In this document: piece by piece, positions 9,208-21,096 of the stretch
How the letters are laid out: each line of letters starts with the position of its first letter
How positions within the stretch are numbered: position 1 is the stretch's first letter
NCBI RefSeq assembly: GCF_000974445.1
Contig: NZ_BBOJ01000021.1
Span: forward strand, 62,001-126,000
Reading direction: 5' to 3'
Length of the DNA stretch: 64,000 bases
Origin: Lentzea aerocolonigenes
GTDB lineage: Bacteria; Actinomycetota; Actinomycetes; Mycobacteriales; Pseudonocardiaceae
Translations under genes and position numbers: made by a program
The notes under the pieces: generated by a model
Databases searched by the model: none
What the model saw: only the letters and a program-made list of their open reading frames with translations
Told to the model about the DNA's origin: nothing

Positions 9208-9223
9208 CCGAAAACGATTTCGA
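9208..9223. promoter_or_regulatory. LacI-family operator between GH127 and lacI
   Basis: CCGAAAACGATTTCGA is a near-perfect palindrome around a central CpG (12 of 16 bases symmetric), the classic LacI/GalR operator form. It lies 27 bp upstream of the GH127 ATG and 64 bp before the divergent LacI ATG. Autoregulation plus repression of the arabinan operon is the natural reading. Confidence 0.75.
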
Positions 9224-9261: not shown

Positions 9262-9276
9262 TCGAATCTCATTCGA
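9262..9276. promoter_or_regulatory. Inverted repeat just upstream of lacI
   Basis: TCGAAT and ATTCGA form a perfect 6-bp inverted repeat around CTC, ending 10 bp before the LacI start codon and covering the area of its ribosome site. It shares the TCGAA half-site flavour of the operator at 9208 and could be a second regulator site or an mRNA hairpin. Confidence 0.4.
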
Positions 9277-9286
9277 AAGGATTTCG

Positions 9287-15387: not shown

Positions 15388-16455
15388 TCAGGTCGTCCGC
15401 GTCACGGCGCGGTTCGCGAGACGGACCAGCGCCCGGCGTGCGTCGTCCTCGATCACGGCACGCTCCAGCGCGGCGAGCCCGGAGGCCGCGAGCAGCTCGA
15501 TGTGCTCCTCGACGGCGGCCACAGCGCCCAGTTCCACCAGCACCGCGAGCACCTCGTCGACGCTGACCGGGCCGCCGTCGAGACAGCGCCGCAGAAGTCC
15601 CAGCGCGGCCGGTCTGTCCTGCGCGCGGGAGAGCGCGATCGCCATCAACGGCGTCCGCTTGCCCTCCCTGATGTCTTCGCCGACGGGCTTGCCGGTGACC
15701 GCGCTGTCGCCGAACGCGCCGATCAGGTCGTCGCGCAGCTGGAACGCCACCCCGATGTCGTGGCCGAACTCCCGCAGGCACTCGACGACCTCGGGACACG
15801 CACCCGCGAGCGCGGCGCCGAGGTGCAGCGGCCGTTCCACGGTGTACGCGGCGGTCTTCAGCGCGGCCACCCGGATGGCGTGCTCCAGCGACTCGTCGCG
15901 CCGGGCCACCGCCAGCAGGTCGAGGTGCTGGCCCACGATCATCTCCGTGCGCATGGCCTGCCACGCCTCCCACCCCCGGTGCAGCGCGTCCGCGGGCAGA
16001 CCGGCGGTCACCAGTGCGTCGTCGGCCCACGCCAGCGCGAGGTCACCGACCAGCACGGCCGCCGAGTCGCCGTACTGGCGGGCACTTCCGGCGCAGCGCT
16101 CGCGCCGGTGCCGCGCGGCGTACACCTCGTGCACCGACGGCCTGCCGCGACGGGTCGGCGAGCGGTCCATCACGTCGTCGTGCACCAGCGCACAGCATTG
16201 GAGCACCTCCAACGCCACCAACGCGCGCACCACGGCGTCCGCCCGGTGCGCGCCTCCCGCGGCACGCCAGCCCCACCACGCGAACGTCGGACGGATCCTC
16301 TTGCCGCCGGCCAGCACCATCCCGCGGAGCTCGTCGGCGAGCTCGGGCGCGTGGTCGTGCCTCGTGCTCAGGAAGTCGTGCAACGCCCTGTCGAAGAGGA
16401 CGGCGAAGTCGTCCACCTGCGACGTGTGAGCGTCCACGCTGGTCAGCATCGACAT
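15388..16455 (-). CDS. crtE: Geranylgeranyl diphosphate synthase
   Basis: 355 aa taking the ATG at 16455 (MSMLTSVDAH); the ATG at 16449 and a GTG at 16524 are alternatives, and the longer one would run into the divergent promoter. All-trans polyprenyl synthase motifs are present: first Asp-rich motif as LVHDDVMD, lysine motif GGKRIRP, and second motif QLRDDLIGAFGD. It makes the C20 precursor used by CrtB. It is the first gene of the crtE-crtI unit. Confidence 0.93.
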   Translation of the reverse strand: MSMLTSVDAHTSQVDDFAVLFDRALHDFLSTRHDHAPELADELRGMVLAGGKRIRPTFAWWGWRAAGGAHRADAVVRALVALEVLQCCALVHDDVMDRSPTRRGRPSVHEVYAARHRRERCAGSARQYGDSAAVLVGDLALAWADDALVTAGLPADALHRGWEAWQAMRTEMIVGQHLDLLAVARRDESLEHAIRVAALKTAAYTVERPLHLGAALAGACPEVVECLREFGHDIGVAFQLRDDLIGAFGDSAVTGKPVGEDIREGKRTPLMAIALSRAQDRPAALGLLRRCLDGGPVSVDEVLAVLVELGAVAAVEEHIELLAASGLAALERAVIEDDARRALVRLANRAVTRTT

Positions 16456-16503
16456 GTTCCGAGCTAAGCAGCGCTTCGGGAGGTCTGCATGATGAGTGCC
16501 GTC

Positions 16504-16513
16504 GTTGTGCAGA
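16504..16513 (+). promoter_or_regulatory. Putative -35 element of crtB promoter
   Basis: GTTGTGCAGA lies 28 bp before the crtB ATG; the identical 10-mer, in the same orientation relative to transcription, lies upstream of crtYc (25197-25206, minus strand). A -10-like TTAGCG follows at 16529. The recurrence at two cluster promoters suggests a shared sigma factor or activator. Confidence 0.45.
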
Positions 16514-16541
16514 AGGCAACTCACCGACTTAGCGTGGAGGA

Positions 16542-17468
16542 ATGTCGGCTGAGCGCGAACTGGACGCCGCGGGCGTCACCGCACCCGCACTGCGTGAGGC
16601 GTACCGGCGCTGCCGTGCGCTCAACGCCGAGCACGGGCGAACCTATTACCTCGCAACGAAGTTGCTCAGCGCGGAGCAACGGCCCGCCGTCCACGCGCTG
16701 TACGGGTTCGCCCGCTGGGTGGACGACATCGTCGACAACGTCCACAGTGGACTCGACGAGAAGATCACCGCGATCGACGGCATCGACGCCCGGCTGAACG
16801 CCGCGCTGACGAGCGGGACGACGGACGACCCGGTGCTCGCCGCGTTGCTCGACACCGTGCACCGCTACGACATCCCGGCGGTGCACTTCCACGACTTCAT
16901 GGCCTCGATGCGGATGGACCTGACCGTCACCGACTACCCCACCTACGCCGACCTCGAACGCTACGTGCACGGATCGGCCGCGGTGATCGGGTTGCAGGTG
17001 CTGCCGGTGCTCGGCACGAGCGCGCCCCGCGAGGAGGCGGAGCCCGCCGCCGCGGCGCTCGGCATCGCCTTCCAGCTCACCAACTTCATCCGCGACGTCG
17101 GCGAGGACCTCGACCGGGGCCGGGTCTACCTGCCCGCGGACGAGCTGGCCGCGTTCGGCGTCGACCGGGAACGGCTGCTGCACGCGCGGGCGTCCGGACG
17201 TGCCGACGACAAGGTGCGCGCGGCGCTGCGCGACCAGGTCCGGCGCGCGCGGGAGGTGTACACGCGGGCGTGGCCGGGTATCGCGATGCTCGCACCGCGC
17301 TCCCGTCCGTGCGTCATGACCGCGTACCGGCTGTACGGACGCATTCTCAACCTCGTCGAGGACGCCGACTGCGACGTGCTGTCCCGTCGTGTCGTCGTCT
17401 CCAACGGCAGGCGGCTCGCTGTCGCCCTGCCCGCTCTCGCCAGGGCGGTTCTCGCCCGAACCGCGTGA
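16542..17468 (+). CDS. crtB: Phytoene synthase
   Basis: 308 aa, ATG after GTGGAGGA. Squalene/phytoene synthase family with both Asp-rich motifs: FARWVDDIVDN (about residues 56-66) and NFIRDVGEDLDRGRVYLP (about 182-199). It condenses two GGPP molecules to phytoene. It is divergent from crtE and followed 10 bp later by the Rieske protein, so these two are one transcript. Confidence 0.96.
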   Translation: MSAERELDAAGVTAPALREAYRRCRALNAEHGRTYYLATKLLSAEQRPAVHALYGFARWVDDIVDNVHSGLDEKITAIDGIDARLNAALTSGTTDDPVLAALLDTVHRYDIPAVHFHDFMASMRMDLTVTDYPTYADLERYVHGSAAVIGLQVLPVLGTSAPREEAEPAAAALGIAFQLTNFIRDVGEDLDRGRVYLPADELAAFGVDRERLLHARASGRADDKVRAALRDQVRRAREVYTRAWPGIAMLAPRSRPCVMTAYRLYGRILNLVEDADCDVLSRRVVVSNGRRLAVALPALARAVLARTA

Positions 17469-17478
17469 AAGGACCCCC

Positions 17479-18435
17479 ATGCGCTTTCCGTTGCGGATCT
17501 ACTCCAGCCCTCCGTGGCGCGAGCAGCGGCCGACGTGGCAGGACGCGAAACCCGCGCTGATCGAGGCCGCCCTGAAACGCGCCACCGCCCGGCCGTCCGG
17601 CAACTGGTTCGTCGCCGGAGCGAGCAGGGACGTGGTGCGCGGCACGGTGTGCGGCCGCACGATCGCGGGCCGGGAGGTCGTGCTGTGGCGCGGCCCGCAC
17701 GACGTGCTGATGGCGGGCTCGGGGTCGTGCCCGCACCTCGGCGCGCCGCTGTGCGACGGCGCGGTGGCCGGGGGCGAGCTGATCTGCCGCTGGCACGGGC
17801 TCGCGTTGAACGGCGAGCGCTTCGGTTCGTGGACGCCCTATCCCGCGCACGACGACGGCGTGCTCGTGTGGGTCCGGCTGGACGAGGCCGGCGGCGAGGA
17901 GCCGCTGCCCGCGCCGGTGCTGCCCGCGCGGCCGCCGGAGGGCGCGATCGACGCGGTCGCCACGCTCATCGGCCGCTGCGATCCCGAGGACGTGGTGGCG
18001 AACCGGCTCGACCCGTGGCACGGCGCGTGGTTCCACCCGTACTCGTTCGCGAACCTGCGCGTGCTGGAGACGCCGGTCGAGGAGCTGGACCGGTTCCTGG
18101 TCGAGGTCACGTTCCGGGTCGCGGGCCGCATCGGCGTGCCCGTCGTCGCCGCGTTCACCTGCCCCGAGCCGCGGACCGTCGTCATGCACATCGTCGAGGG
18201 TGAGGGCGAGGGCAGCGTCGTCGAGACGCACGCGACGCCGATCCGCGAGGGCAGGACCGCCGTGGTCGAGGCGACCATCGCGCACTCCGATCGGCGCGGG
18301 TTCGCGCTGGCCAGGCCCGCCGCCGGGGCGTTGCGGCCGGTGATGAGGTGGGCGGCCGCCCGGTTGTGGCGCGACGACCTCGCCTACGCCGAACGCCGGT
18401 ACGCCCTGCGGCGCAGTGGCCGGTTCCCCGATTGA
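17479..18435 (+). CDS. Rieske [2Fe-2S] protein with DUF5914-type C-terminus
   Basis: 318 aa from the ATG at 17479, just after the crtB stop; an upstream in-frame extension overlaps crtB and is discarded. The Rieske cluster ligands are CPHLGAPLC and CRWHGLAL (C-x-H and C-x2-H, residues about 86-107). The C-terminal half matches the domain (DUF5914) that accompanies Rieske domains in actinobacterial carotenoid clusters. No mononuclear-iron oxygenase triad is obvious, so it may modify or shuttle electrons for a carotenoid step. The exact reaction is unknown. Confidence 0.85.
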   Translation: MRFPLRIYSSPPWREQRPTWQDAKPALIEAALKRATARPSGNWFVAGASRDVVRGTVCGRTIAGREVVLWRGPHDVLMAGSGSCPHLGAPLCDGAVAGGELICRWHGLALNGERFGSWTPYPAHDDGVLVWVRLDEAGGEEPLPAPVLPARPPEGAIDAVATLIGRCDPEDVVANRLDPWHGAWFHPYSFANLRVLETPVEELDRFLVEVTFRVAGRIGVPVVAAFTCPEPRTVVMHIVEGEGEGSVVETHATPIREGRTAVVEATIAHSDRRGFALARPAAGALRPVMRWAAARLWRDDLAYAERRYALRRSGRFPD

Positions 18436-18445
18436 GCGAGTCGAG

Positions 18446-18474
18446 TTGAAACGATTTTGAATCGATTTTAGGAT
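18446..18474 (+). promoter_or_regulatory. whiB-litR promoter with tandem 11-bp repeats
   Basis: TTGAAA (18446) and TAGGAT (18469) are separated by exactly 17 bp, an excellent housekeeping-type promoter. TTGAAACGATT (18446-18456) and TTGAATCGATT (18457-18467) are head-to-tail 11-bp repeats, 10 of 11 identical, spanning the -35 and spacer. CarH/LitR regulators are known to bind 11-bp direct repeats over promoters, so this is the likely LitR operator. Confidence 0.7.
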
Positions 18475-18515: not shown

Positions 18516-18803
18516 ATGCCTGAACTGTCCCGTTTGCCACGACCAGTCACGGAGTCCTGGGACTGGCAACTGTCCGGCCTGTGCCGGGGCATGAACAGCT
18601 CCGCCTTCTTCCACACGCCGAACGAACGCGGCGCCGCGCGCGACGCGCGGGAGGCGGCGGCGAAGGCGATCTGCCAGCGCTGCCCCGTCATGCAGCAGTG
18701 CCGCGCGCACGCGTTGGAGGTGCACGAGACGTTCGGCATCTGGGGCGGTCTCGGCGAGAGCGAACTGCGGGCGATGCTCGCCGAGCGTGCCCGCGAGTCG
18801 TGA
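18516..18803 (+). CDS. WhiB-family iron-sulfur regulator
   Basis: 95 aa. Wbl signature: four Cys (C23 in SGLCRGM, then CQRCPVMQQC) for a [4Fe-4S] cluster, followed by the GIWGGLGE turn. Wbl proteins usually bind the principal sigma factor and tune transcription. The stop overlaps the LitR-like gene by 4 bp (GTGA), so they are a translationally coupled pair behind one promoter. Its placement inside a carotenoid cluster points to control of pigment genes, which is inference. Confidence 0.92.
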   Translation: MPELSRLPRPVTESWDWQLSGLCRGMNSSAFFHTPNERGAARDAREAAAKAICQRCPVMQQCRAHALEVHETFGIWGGLGESELRAMLAERARES

Positions 18804-19657
18804 CCTACGCGCCGCGCGCGGTCGCCGCGATGCTCGGCGTCTCCCCTGTCACGCTGAGAACGTGGGACCAGCGCTACGGCCTCGGTCCCTCGGTTCGCAC
18901 GGAAGGTGGTCACCGCCGCTACGAGGACGCGGACGTCGAGGTCCTGCGGCGGATGGTCACGTTGACGGGTCAGGGCGTCGCACCGGCCGCAGCCGCCGAA
19001 CTGGCGCGCCAGGAACCTCTTGCCCGGCAGGGGACCCCGCGCATCCCGGTGGACGACGCCGGGGCCGCCCAGCGGGGTTTCCTCGCCGCCGCCAAGCGGC
19101 TCGACGAGCCGTTGATGATGGATCTGGCGACCAAGCTCGTCACCGAGCACGGCGTGGTCTCCGCGTGGGAGTCGGTGTTCGTGCCGTGCCTGGTGGAACT
19201 CGGCGACCTGGTCACCGGTCGTGGCCGCGGTGTCGAGGTGGAGCACCTGGCCAGCGCGAGCGTGCTGCACGCGTTGCGCGGTGTGCAGCGCTCCAGCAGA
19301 CCTGGCGTGCTCGCGGCGTTGCTGTCGTGTGCGCCGGACGAGCAGCACGTGCTGGCGTTGGAGGCGCTGGGAGCCGCACTGTCCGAAGAGGACTGCCTGT
19401 GGCGCGGTCTGGGCGCGAGGGTGCCGGCCGAGGCGTTGTGCGACGCGGTGGTGCGGTTGCGTCCCGCGGTCGCGTTGATCTGGGCGCACCGGGCGGATCT
19501 CGCCGAACGGGTGCCGCTGGAGGAGTTGAGCGAGAGGTCGGACGCGTTGCTCGCCGTCGCGGGGCCGGGCTGGGAAGGACTGGCGCTGCCGTCGTCCGTG
19601 CGGCGACCGGCCACGCTGCCCGAAGCGGTCAGCGTGGTGCTCAGCCGCGTGCGTTAG
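18800..19657 (+). CDS. litR: LitR/CarH-like MerR regulator with B12-binding-type domain
   Basis: 285 aa from the GTG at 18800. Residues 1-70 are a MerR winged helix (RAVAAMLGVSPVTLRTWDQRYGL, GGHRRY). The remainder matches the light-sensing adenosylcobalamin module: VEVEHLAS keeps the Glu-His of the Wx9EH motif, and APDEQHVLALEALG keeps the region of the lower axial His. The Trp expected 10 residues before the Glu is replaced by Val (DLVTGRGRGVEVEH). Homologues repress carotenoid genes in the dark and release in light. It is convergent with the photolyase-like gene, overlapping by 4 bp. Confidence 0.85.
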   Translation: MTYAPRAVAAMLGVSPVTLRTWDQRYGLGPSVRTEGGHRRYEDADVEVLRRMVTLTGQGVAPAAAAELARQEPLARQGTPRIPVDDAGAAQRGFLAAAKRLDEPLMMDLATKLVTEHGVVSAWESVFVPCLVELGDLVTGRGRGVEVEHLASASVLHALRGVQRSSRPGVLAALLSCAPDEQHVLALEALGAALSEEDCLWRGLGARVPAEALCDAVVRLRPAVALIWAHRADLAERVPLEELSERSDALLAVAGPGWEGLALPSSVRRPATLPEAVSVVLSRVR

Positions 19658-21096
19658 AAGATCTCGCGGTCGCGTTCGGCCTCGCGGACCTCGTCGAGAT
19701 CCGCGAGGCGGTGCAGGCCCTGCACGGCGCGTGCCATGCGGTGGTTGCCGCGCATCCGTTCCCGGTTCCGGTCGAGCCACGCCCAGTAGCCCGCGGTGAA
19801 CGGGCACGCGCGCTCTCCCGTGCGCCGCTTGGGATCGAACCAGCAGGTGCCGCAGTGGTCGGTCATCCGGTTGAGGTAGGCACCGCCGCTGAGGTAGGGC
19901 TTGGTCGCGATCACACCACCGTCCGCGTGCTGGCTCATGCCGATCACGTTCACCGGCATGACCCACGGGAACCCGTCGGCGAACGACGTGATGAACCAGT
20001 CGTTGAGCGCGGCGGGGTCGTAGCCGCGTTGCAAAGCGTGGTTGCCCAGCACCATCAACCGCTGGATGTGGTGCACCCAGCCGTGATCGCGCACGCCTTC
20101 CAGCGCGGTCCGGAGACAGGCCGCGCGGATGGCCCCCGGACGTAGCTCCGCCCACCACTGCGGCAGCGGGTTCTTGGCGTCGAAATCGTTGCAGTGCCGA
20201 TATTCCGCGCCGAGGTGCCAGTACAGGTGCCACACGTACTCGCGCCACCCCAGCACCTGCCGCACGAACCCCTCGACACCGGCCAGCGGCGCATCGCCGG
20301 ACCGGTAGGCGTCCTCCGCCGCGTAGACGACCTCCAGCGGGTGGAGCAGCCCGTGGTTGAGCGGCACGGACAACAGCGAATGCGCCATCGTCCAGTCTTT
20401 GGTGAGCACGGCGTCCTCGTGCGGACCGAAGTGCGGCAGCCGGTCGAGTACGAAGGTCTCCAACGCGCTCAACGCTTCCGCCCGCGTGATGGCGAACCGG
20501 CGCGGGCCGTCCTTGCCGACCGTCGGCAGGTTCATCGCGTCGAGGTCCTTGCGCACCTGCGCGTCGATGGCGTCCTCCTCCGGCCACCACGGTGCCGGCA
20601 CGCCGAGCCGCGTGCGTTTGGGCGGGGGCTCGCGGTTGTCGGCGTCGAAGTTCCACCTGCCGCCCACCGGATCCGCGCCGTCCATCAGCACGTCGAAGCG
20701 AATGCGCTGGTAGTGGTAGAAGTCCTCCATCAGGAACCGTTCGCGTCCTCCGGCCCAGGCGGTGAACTCCTGACGGGAGAGGGCGAACGCGTTCGTCGGC
20801 CGGACCTGCACGCCGAGTTCGCACAGCATCCGTTGAGCGGCGAACGAACCGGGTTGGTAGGCGGTGAGCGGTCTGTTGAGATCACGGATCGCTTCGCGGT
20901 AGGTGTTGGCGCGCACCAGCGTGACGCGGTCGGGGAACTCGGCGGCGAGATGACGCATGCCGGACAGGACGAGGTGCAGCTTCTGCCGGTGGTAACGCTT
21001 GCGGCGCAACGCGGTGGCGGACTCGATCAGCACGATCTCGTCGTGCCCGGTGTGGAAGTGCGGGCCGAGCTGGTCGCCGAACAACAGCAGCGTCAT
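19654..21096 (-). CDS. FeS cryptochrome/photolyase-related protein
   Basis: 480 aa. It begins MTLLLFGDQLGPHF, as in the deoxyribodipyrimidine photolyase-related family (FeS-BCP, bacterial (6-4) photolyases). The FAD-binding helical half includes GFVRQVLGWREYVWHLYW and the invariant NDWFITSFADGFPWVMPVNV. Candidate [4Fe-4S] ligands are the Cys in YRHCNDF plus CGTCWFDP and ERACPF. It likely repairs UV lesions or senses light. The ATG overlaps the stop of the FAD oxidoreductase by 4 bp; it is the last gene of the crtYc operon. Confidence 0.92.
   Translation of the reverse strand: MTLLLFGDQLGPHFHTGHDEIVLIESATALRRKRYHRQKLHLVLSGMRHLAAEFPDRVTLVRANTYREAIRDLNRPLTAYQPGSFAAQRMLCELGVQVRPTNAFALSRQEFTAWAGGRERFLMEDFYHYQRIRFDVLMDGADPVGGRWNFDADNREPPPKRTRLGVPAPWWPEEDAIDAQVRKDLDAMNLPTVGKDGPRRFAITRAEALSALETFVLDRLPHFGPHEDAVLTKDWTMAHSLLSVPLNHGLLHPLEVVYAAEDAYRSGDAPLAGVEGFVRQVLGWREYVWHLYWHLGAEYRHCNDFDAKNPLPQWWAELRPGAIRAACLRTALEGVRDHGWVHHIQRLMVLGNHALQRGYDPAALNDWFITSFADGFPWVMPVNVIGMSQHADGGVIATKPYLSGGAYLNRMTDHCGTCWFDPKRRTGERACPFTAGYWAWLDRNRERMRGNHRMARAVQGLHRLADLDEVREAERDREIF

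Follow-up and report, generated by a model that had tools for sequence, protein, structure and literature searches.

Tandem 11-bp operators of CarH proteins are already known. In Thermus thermophilus, Bacillus megaterium and the Myxococcales, they are direct repeats placed over the -35 element, beside carotenoid and regulator genes, with the half-site nAnnTnnACAn present in three or four copies (PMC8156234, PMC9304148). The Wx9EH motif of the regulator is said to define CarH homologues: it is reported to be conserved in all those studied and to be critical, and the B12-independent activity of CarA is explained by the lack of this motif (PMC8156234). For Streptomyces, LitR has been described as a coenzyme-B12 light sensor that acts on litS and promotes its transcription under illumination (PMC12705666). 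The window, the whole 64-kb stretch of DNA analysed here, belongs to a genome whose nearest named relatives are all Lentzea. Here too, tandem 11-bp direct repeats lie over a -35 element beside carotenoid and regulator genes, but the half-site is TGAnnCGnTT instead of nAnnTnnACAn and is present in two copies rather than three or four. The CarH half-site could not be fitted to the 22-mer, which contains no ACA on either strand.

The repeats precede whiB (18516..18803, + strand), predicted to encode a WhiB3/WhiD-like [4Fe-4S] Wbl regulator of 95 aa (Pfam Whib, 1.6e-23). The best PDB match of its product is M. tuberculosis WhiB3 (7e-33, residues 1-87), the alignment over 87 residues including the Wbl core, and both the four Cys (in the CRG, CQRC and QQC segments) and the GxWGG turn (as GIWGG) are present. 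WhiB3 is the orthologue of Streptomyces WhiD (PMC4255298); unlike these, whiB here is linked to crt and litR genes. The following gene, litR1 (18800..19657, + strand), most likely starts at the GTG at 18800, overlapping the whiB stop codon (GTGA), and its product is a MerR-family regulator with a predicted CarH-like cobalamin-binding fold. Convergent with litR1 is a gene for a photolyase-related protein (DPRP; 19654..21096, - strand; Pfam PF04244, 9e-38), which may provide the context of a light or oxidative-stress cluster. On the other side, crtE (polyprenyl synthetase, - strand; PF00348, 3e-48) and crtB (phytoene synthase, + strand; PF00494, 2e-77) occupy 15388..17468, suggesting a carotenoid context. 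A Rieske and DUF5914 oxygenase-like gene (17479-18435) lies directly upstream of the repeats, with its stop codon about 10 bp from the first of them.

The tandem repeats and the whiB-litR1 promoter

The two predicted operator half-sites, DR1 (TTGAAACGATT, 18446..18456, + strand) and DR2 (TTGAATCGATT, 18457..18467, + strand), are contiguous, identical at 10 of 11 positions, and together span 22 bp (18446-18467). The first six bases of DR1 are the -35 hexamer TTGAAA, and the -10 hexamer TAGGAT (18469..18474, + strand) follows at a distance of 17 bp, with DR2 lying entirely inside this spacer and filling most of it. A consensus scan found the TTGAAA-17-TAGGAT promoter (18446-18474) once, against 0.0 expected in shuffles of the region, and by its sequence it is a good predicted promoter of the sigma-70 type; relatives carry TAGGAT, TACGAT or TAGGCT at equal distance from the -35 hexamer. 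The sequence and the scan confirmed the preliminary description: the 11-bp direct repeats are contiguous and cover the -35 hexamer and spacer of a 17-bp-spaced promoter.

Apart from DR1-DR2, no 11-bp tandem in the 64-kb window reaches 10/11 matches. First-order simulations with the window composition gave a mean of 1.2 such tandems per simulated 64-kb window, so the tandem alone is insignificant, and the case for an operator rests on the position and conservation of the site, not on the repeat alone. A chance tandem repeat could not be rejected from the window data alone and was ruled out by the genome comparison. No third repeat in register was seen by eye upstream or downstream of DR1-DR2. 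Half-sites near LitR genes follow an 11-bp period on the same strand, with no extra half-site spacing there; other spacings arise from the semi-palindromic unit when it is taken on the opposite strand. An inverted repeat is a second way to describe the core CGATTTTGAATCG, which counts against the operator reading. Concerted evolution of the two copies was considered as proof of direct-repeat recognition and rejected, the within-site identity of 8.10 of 11 not differing significantly from the 8.08 expected from column composition.

The genome scan for repeat pairs proposed in the preliminary description yielded one further strong site. At up to 3 mismatches, the 22-bp pair has two copies in the 10.7-Mb Lentzea genome, and the reversed control has none. 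The second copy, TTGAAACGATT followed by TTGAATCGAAT (C54:269370, 1 mismatch), overlaps the 3' end of litR2, which encodes a paralogue 49% identical to LitR1, and repeats the promoter geometry as TTGAAA-N17-TAGACT ahead of tspO. Both close copies are found at litR genes with the form TTGAAA-N17-TAGnnT. A looser pattern added a third, weaker copy upstream of litR2, overlapping its start region; beyond these three litR-linked sites, the looser genome-wide search for more regulon members returned noise at the control level. From the litR2-end promoter, transcription is predicted to begin near the ATG of a small gene (about 98 codons; L002 1190-1485, minus strand), situated between the operator and tspO. 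This gene is probably leaderless, and some relatives (L003, L005, L018) have it in shortened form or not at all.

A conserved site over whiB promoters linked to litR genes

Comparison of the 24 Lentzea genomes in the genus set revealed close copies of the site in 15, with no match to the reversed pattern, and none of the three genomes without LitR1/LitR2 has the site (0/3). The litR1 genomes seemingly without it carry the variant TTGCGTCGTTT followed by CTGAGTCGATT at the equivalent place, and when the variant TTGCGTCGWTTCTGAGTCGAWT is counted, every Lentzea whiB-litR1 promoter has the site except one with a visible deletion. In G012 (L027), a natural deletion at one whiB-litR1 copy removes most of DR2, the -10 hexamer and the leader, fusing the cut-down operator (TTGCGTCGTTTCCCAGTCG) straight to the whiB start. 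In G005 and G008, which have no intact litR1, whiB still bears the site and litR2 is present. Five Lentzea genomes (L004, L010, L014, L021 and L022; site at 1501) also have a near-identical 22-bp site in front of a gene resembling those for zinc alcohol/formaldehyde dehydrogenases, where the sequence downstream looks sigma-B-like (GGGTAT/GGGTAC) and not sigma-70-like.

The family survey covered 299 genomes, LitR being counted as a close LitR of the LitR1/2-type clade. The site was found in 42 genomes, LitR in 64 and both in 40, which places the site in 40/64 LitR genomes versus 2/235 LitR-less ones (Fisher p = 2e-30, a nominal value as the genomes are related). In G130, one of the two site-bearing LitR-less genomes, the litR beside the site matches in two pieces and is apparently broken. 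Of the 22 loci of the family search, 19 have a LitR gene no more than about 1.5 kb from the site, and in 17 whiB is directly downstream of it. Saccharothrix, Kutzneria, Umezawaea and others likewise have the site in front of whiB, and their litR may be on either side, upstream or downstream; some genomes of the Saccharopolyspora and Amycolatopsis types bear LitR without a recognisable site. DR1 is kept in the 36 aligned whiB promoters, in which identity is 0.88 for the spacer holding DR2, 0.78 for the -35 hexamer, 0.81 for the -10 hexamer, and 0.65 for the leader and upstream flank.

A related tandem 11-bp site, TTGCATCGGTT followed by CTGCGTCGTAT with variants, is present in Streptomyces between the divergent litR and litS, the gene adjoining litR encoding a sigma-70-family factor. 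The site pattern matched in 24/121 Streptomyces genomes, and the control in none. The Streptomyces LitR homologue is about 40% identical, but it keeps GxxW, its site is placed otherwise relative to the promoter, and the output there is the ECF sigma factor LitS, whereas here whiB is paired with litR1. The open-access literature searched contained neither a described Streptomyces LitR binding motif nor a LitR-WhiB link.

Sequence comparison establishes the site, its overlap with the promoter, its conservation and its link to litR genes, and DR1-DR2 is very probably bound by a LitR-family protein. The link to the LitR/CarH family drawn in the preliminary description is upheld by the co-occurrence over 299 genomes, the fixed position on whiB promoters and the like site at Streptomyces litR-litS. 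We infer that LitR1 and/or LitR2 bind the two head-to-tail half-sites, covering the -35 hexamer and spacer, and that in doing so they would keep RNA polymerase off the whiB-litR1 promoter, a repression by occlusion. Once they let go, whiB and litR1 would be switched on jointly, which would place litR1 under negative autoregulation; autoregulation of litR, also suggested earlier, is implied by the location of the operator in front of that gene. This promoter could be a target of LitR2, or of LitR3 with its Trp, as well. The WhiB3/WhiD-like protein would be the output, acting on carotenoid and stress genes in place of the LitS of Streptomyces. WhiB3, of the Wbl family, acts with sigma-A, and WhiB likely does the same. 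Activation by LitR is possible as well, given the positive effect on litS transcription in light that is ascribed to the Streptomyces protein (PMC12705666).

LitR proteins and the possible inducing signal

The AlphaFold2 model of LitR1 has a mean pLDDT of 89.9, and its top Foldseek hits are T. thermophilus CarH (5c8f, 5c8d and 5c8e), together with other cobalamin-binding domains. As in CarH, a MerR-type winged-helix DNA-binding domain (Pfam MerR_1, 1e-15) is joined to a cobalamin-binding fold, modelled here as a helix bundle and a Rossmann domain; Pfam B12 domains are near or below threshold only. In an alignment of 15 diverse LitR1/2 proteins, neither the EH pair nor the ExH motif of the lower-axial His varies. 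With respect to the cobalamin motif ExHx2G...SxV/T...GG, LitR1 keeps ExH, has Ala in place of Gly and reads AGPGW at GG, and the Streptomyces type deviates likewise. Unlike CarH, LitR1 lacks both Trp131 and His132. In LitR1 and LitR2, Wx9EH retains EH and has Val at the equivalent of Trp131, a position that is Val, Ile, Ala, Phe, Cys or missing in 22/22 tree rows of the Pseudonocardiaceae-clade LitR1/2 (support 99/93). The Trp is kept in 21 of the 24 other rows, including Streptomyces and LitR3, a third paralogue present in 24/24 Lentzea genomes.

The preliminary description had reasoned that B12 photoreceptors bind 11-bp direct repeats in this way and that light could thus control LitR. This is unsupported as stated, given the missing Wx9EH Trp of LitR1/LitR2, the lack of a CarH half-site and the presence of two copies. 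Light control of the whiB-litR promoter is plausible, and light acting through adenosylcobalamin (AdoCbl) is a possible inducing signal; direct photoreception by LitR1 is on balance doubtful, because LitR1/2 lack a residue critical in CarH.

Two proposals on the signal are refinements of the LitR-operator reading and not alternatives to it. Tentatively, LitR1/2 may resemble CarA in being B12-independent repressors, with the light or singlet-oxygen input supplied by a different protein, for instance LitR3 (which has the Trp) or an antirepressor. CarA of Myxococcus xanthus is likewise a CarH-like paralogue whose Wx9EH is impaired; it acts as repressor of a carotenoid promoter, possibly with no need for B12, and B12-independent action in the absence of Wx9EH, at an operator common to CarH, is described for it (PMC8156234). 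The occurrence of LitR3 throughout Lentzea also fits. The EH retained in LitR1/2 argues against this proposal, as does the distinct site of LitR3, single per genome. Unlike the site here, the CarA operator is read as two inverted repeats (PMC9304148), and CarA works with CarS. It is rather unlikely that LitR1 is an AdoCbl photoreceptor of the CarH kind, in which a dark AdoCbl-bound oligomer would repress whiB-litR until light broke the Co-C bond and released it. The CarH-like fold, the invariant EH and ExH, the neighbouring crt and photolyase-related genes and the like operator type at the B12-dependent LitR-LitS system (PMC12705666) are consistent with such a role, but Trp131 is lost throughout the LitR1/2 clade, Wx9EH being critical in CarH (PMC8156234), and there are two half-sites only, without the ACA core. 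As for the missing His132 equivalent, the H132A change in CarH blocks monomerisation (PMC10442372), and CtMerR and photocobilins, which have no such residue, are still light-responsive (PMC11796333).

It is improbable that the site serves a different regulator (WhiB itself, say, or a non-LitR MerR protein), with litR as a mere neighbour. In favour of this, both whiB and litR are adjacent in most loci of other genera, but at the litR2 loci the site stands ahead of tspO and ahead of litR2 with no whiB, and the Streptomyces sites lie at litR-litS. That the conserved block is merely a strong sigma-A promoter with an incidental repeat is very improbable: DR1 contains the -35 hexamer and chance alone should produce about one such tandem per window, but conservation is highest in the spacer, a part left free in a plain promoter, the near-identical 22-mer at the alcohol-dehydrogenase gene is followed by a different promoter sequence, and occurrence tracks litR.

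The divergent whiB3-litR3 module

The reading of DR1-DR2 as a LitR operator can be compared with divergent whiB-litR pairs across Actinomycetota, found in freshwater actinobacteria, Frankiales, Micrococcales and every Lentzea. In 33/34 loci examined, the whiB promoter of these pairs carries TTGAMCAACTT followed by dTGAAnCGrTT and then the -10 hexamer, with some letter variation. This whiB3-litR3 module site occurs exactly once per genome in 24/24 Lentzea (G000:C24:63600-63621, L170; further loci among L044-L046 and L106-L154), and shares DR2 with the window site while differing in DR1. The product of the litR3-linked whiB is a closer match to M. tuberculosis WhiB3 than the window WhiB is, and the divergent module is possibly the ancestral form.

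We consider the following history conceivable, at not far short of an even chance. An ancient Actinomycetota module, in which a CarH/LitR protein controls a WhiB3-type redox regulator through two 11-bp half-sites over the whiB promoter, would originally have had a Trp-bearing, potentially light-sensing LitR divergent with whiB3. In Pseudonocardiaceae, a duplicate would have entered the carotenoid cluster, its first half-site changing and the photosensory Trp being lost; the window copy would accordingly respond to a signal other than AdoCbl photolysis. The open-access literature searched yielded no case of WhiB3 controlled by a LitR/CarH protein, and no mention of this half-site sequence, of WhiB as the partner or of the loss of the Trp; an earlier description elsewhere is possible.

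Actinobacterial LitR proteins thereby gain a concrete candidate DNA target sequence, and the CarH-like sensor family is linked to WhiB3/WhiD-type iron-sulfur regulators. LitR1/2 would represent natural CarH-fold proteins that lack the adenosyl-capping Trp yet keep their operators, and control of a WhiB3 orthologue by B12 photochemistry becomes testable with one promoter and three proteins. Elsewhere in the window, the inverted repeats CGAAAACGATTTCG (9209-9222) and CGAAAGGATTTCG (9274-9286) lie just upstream of a LacI-type gene (ATG 9287) and are likely its own operators.
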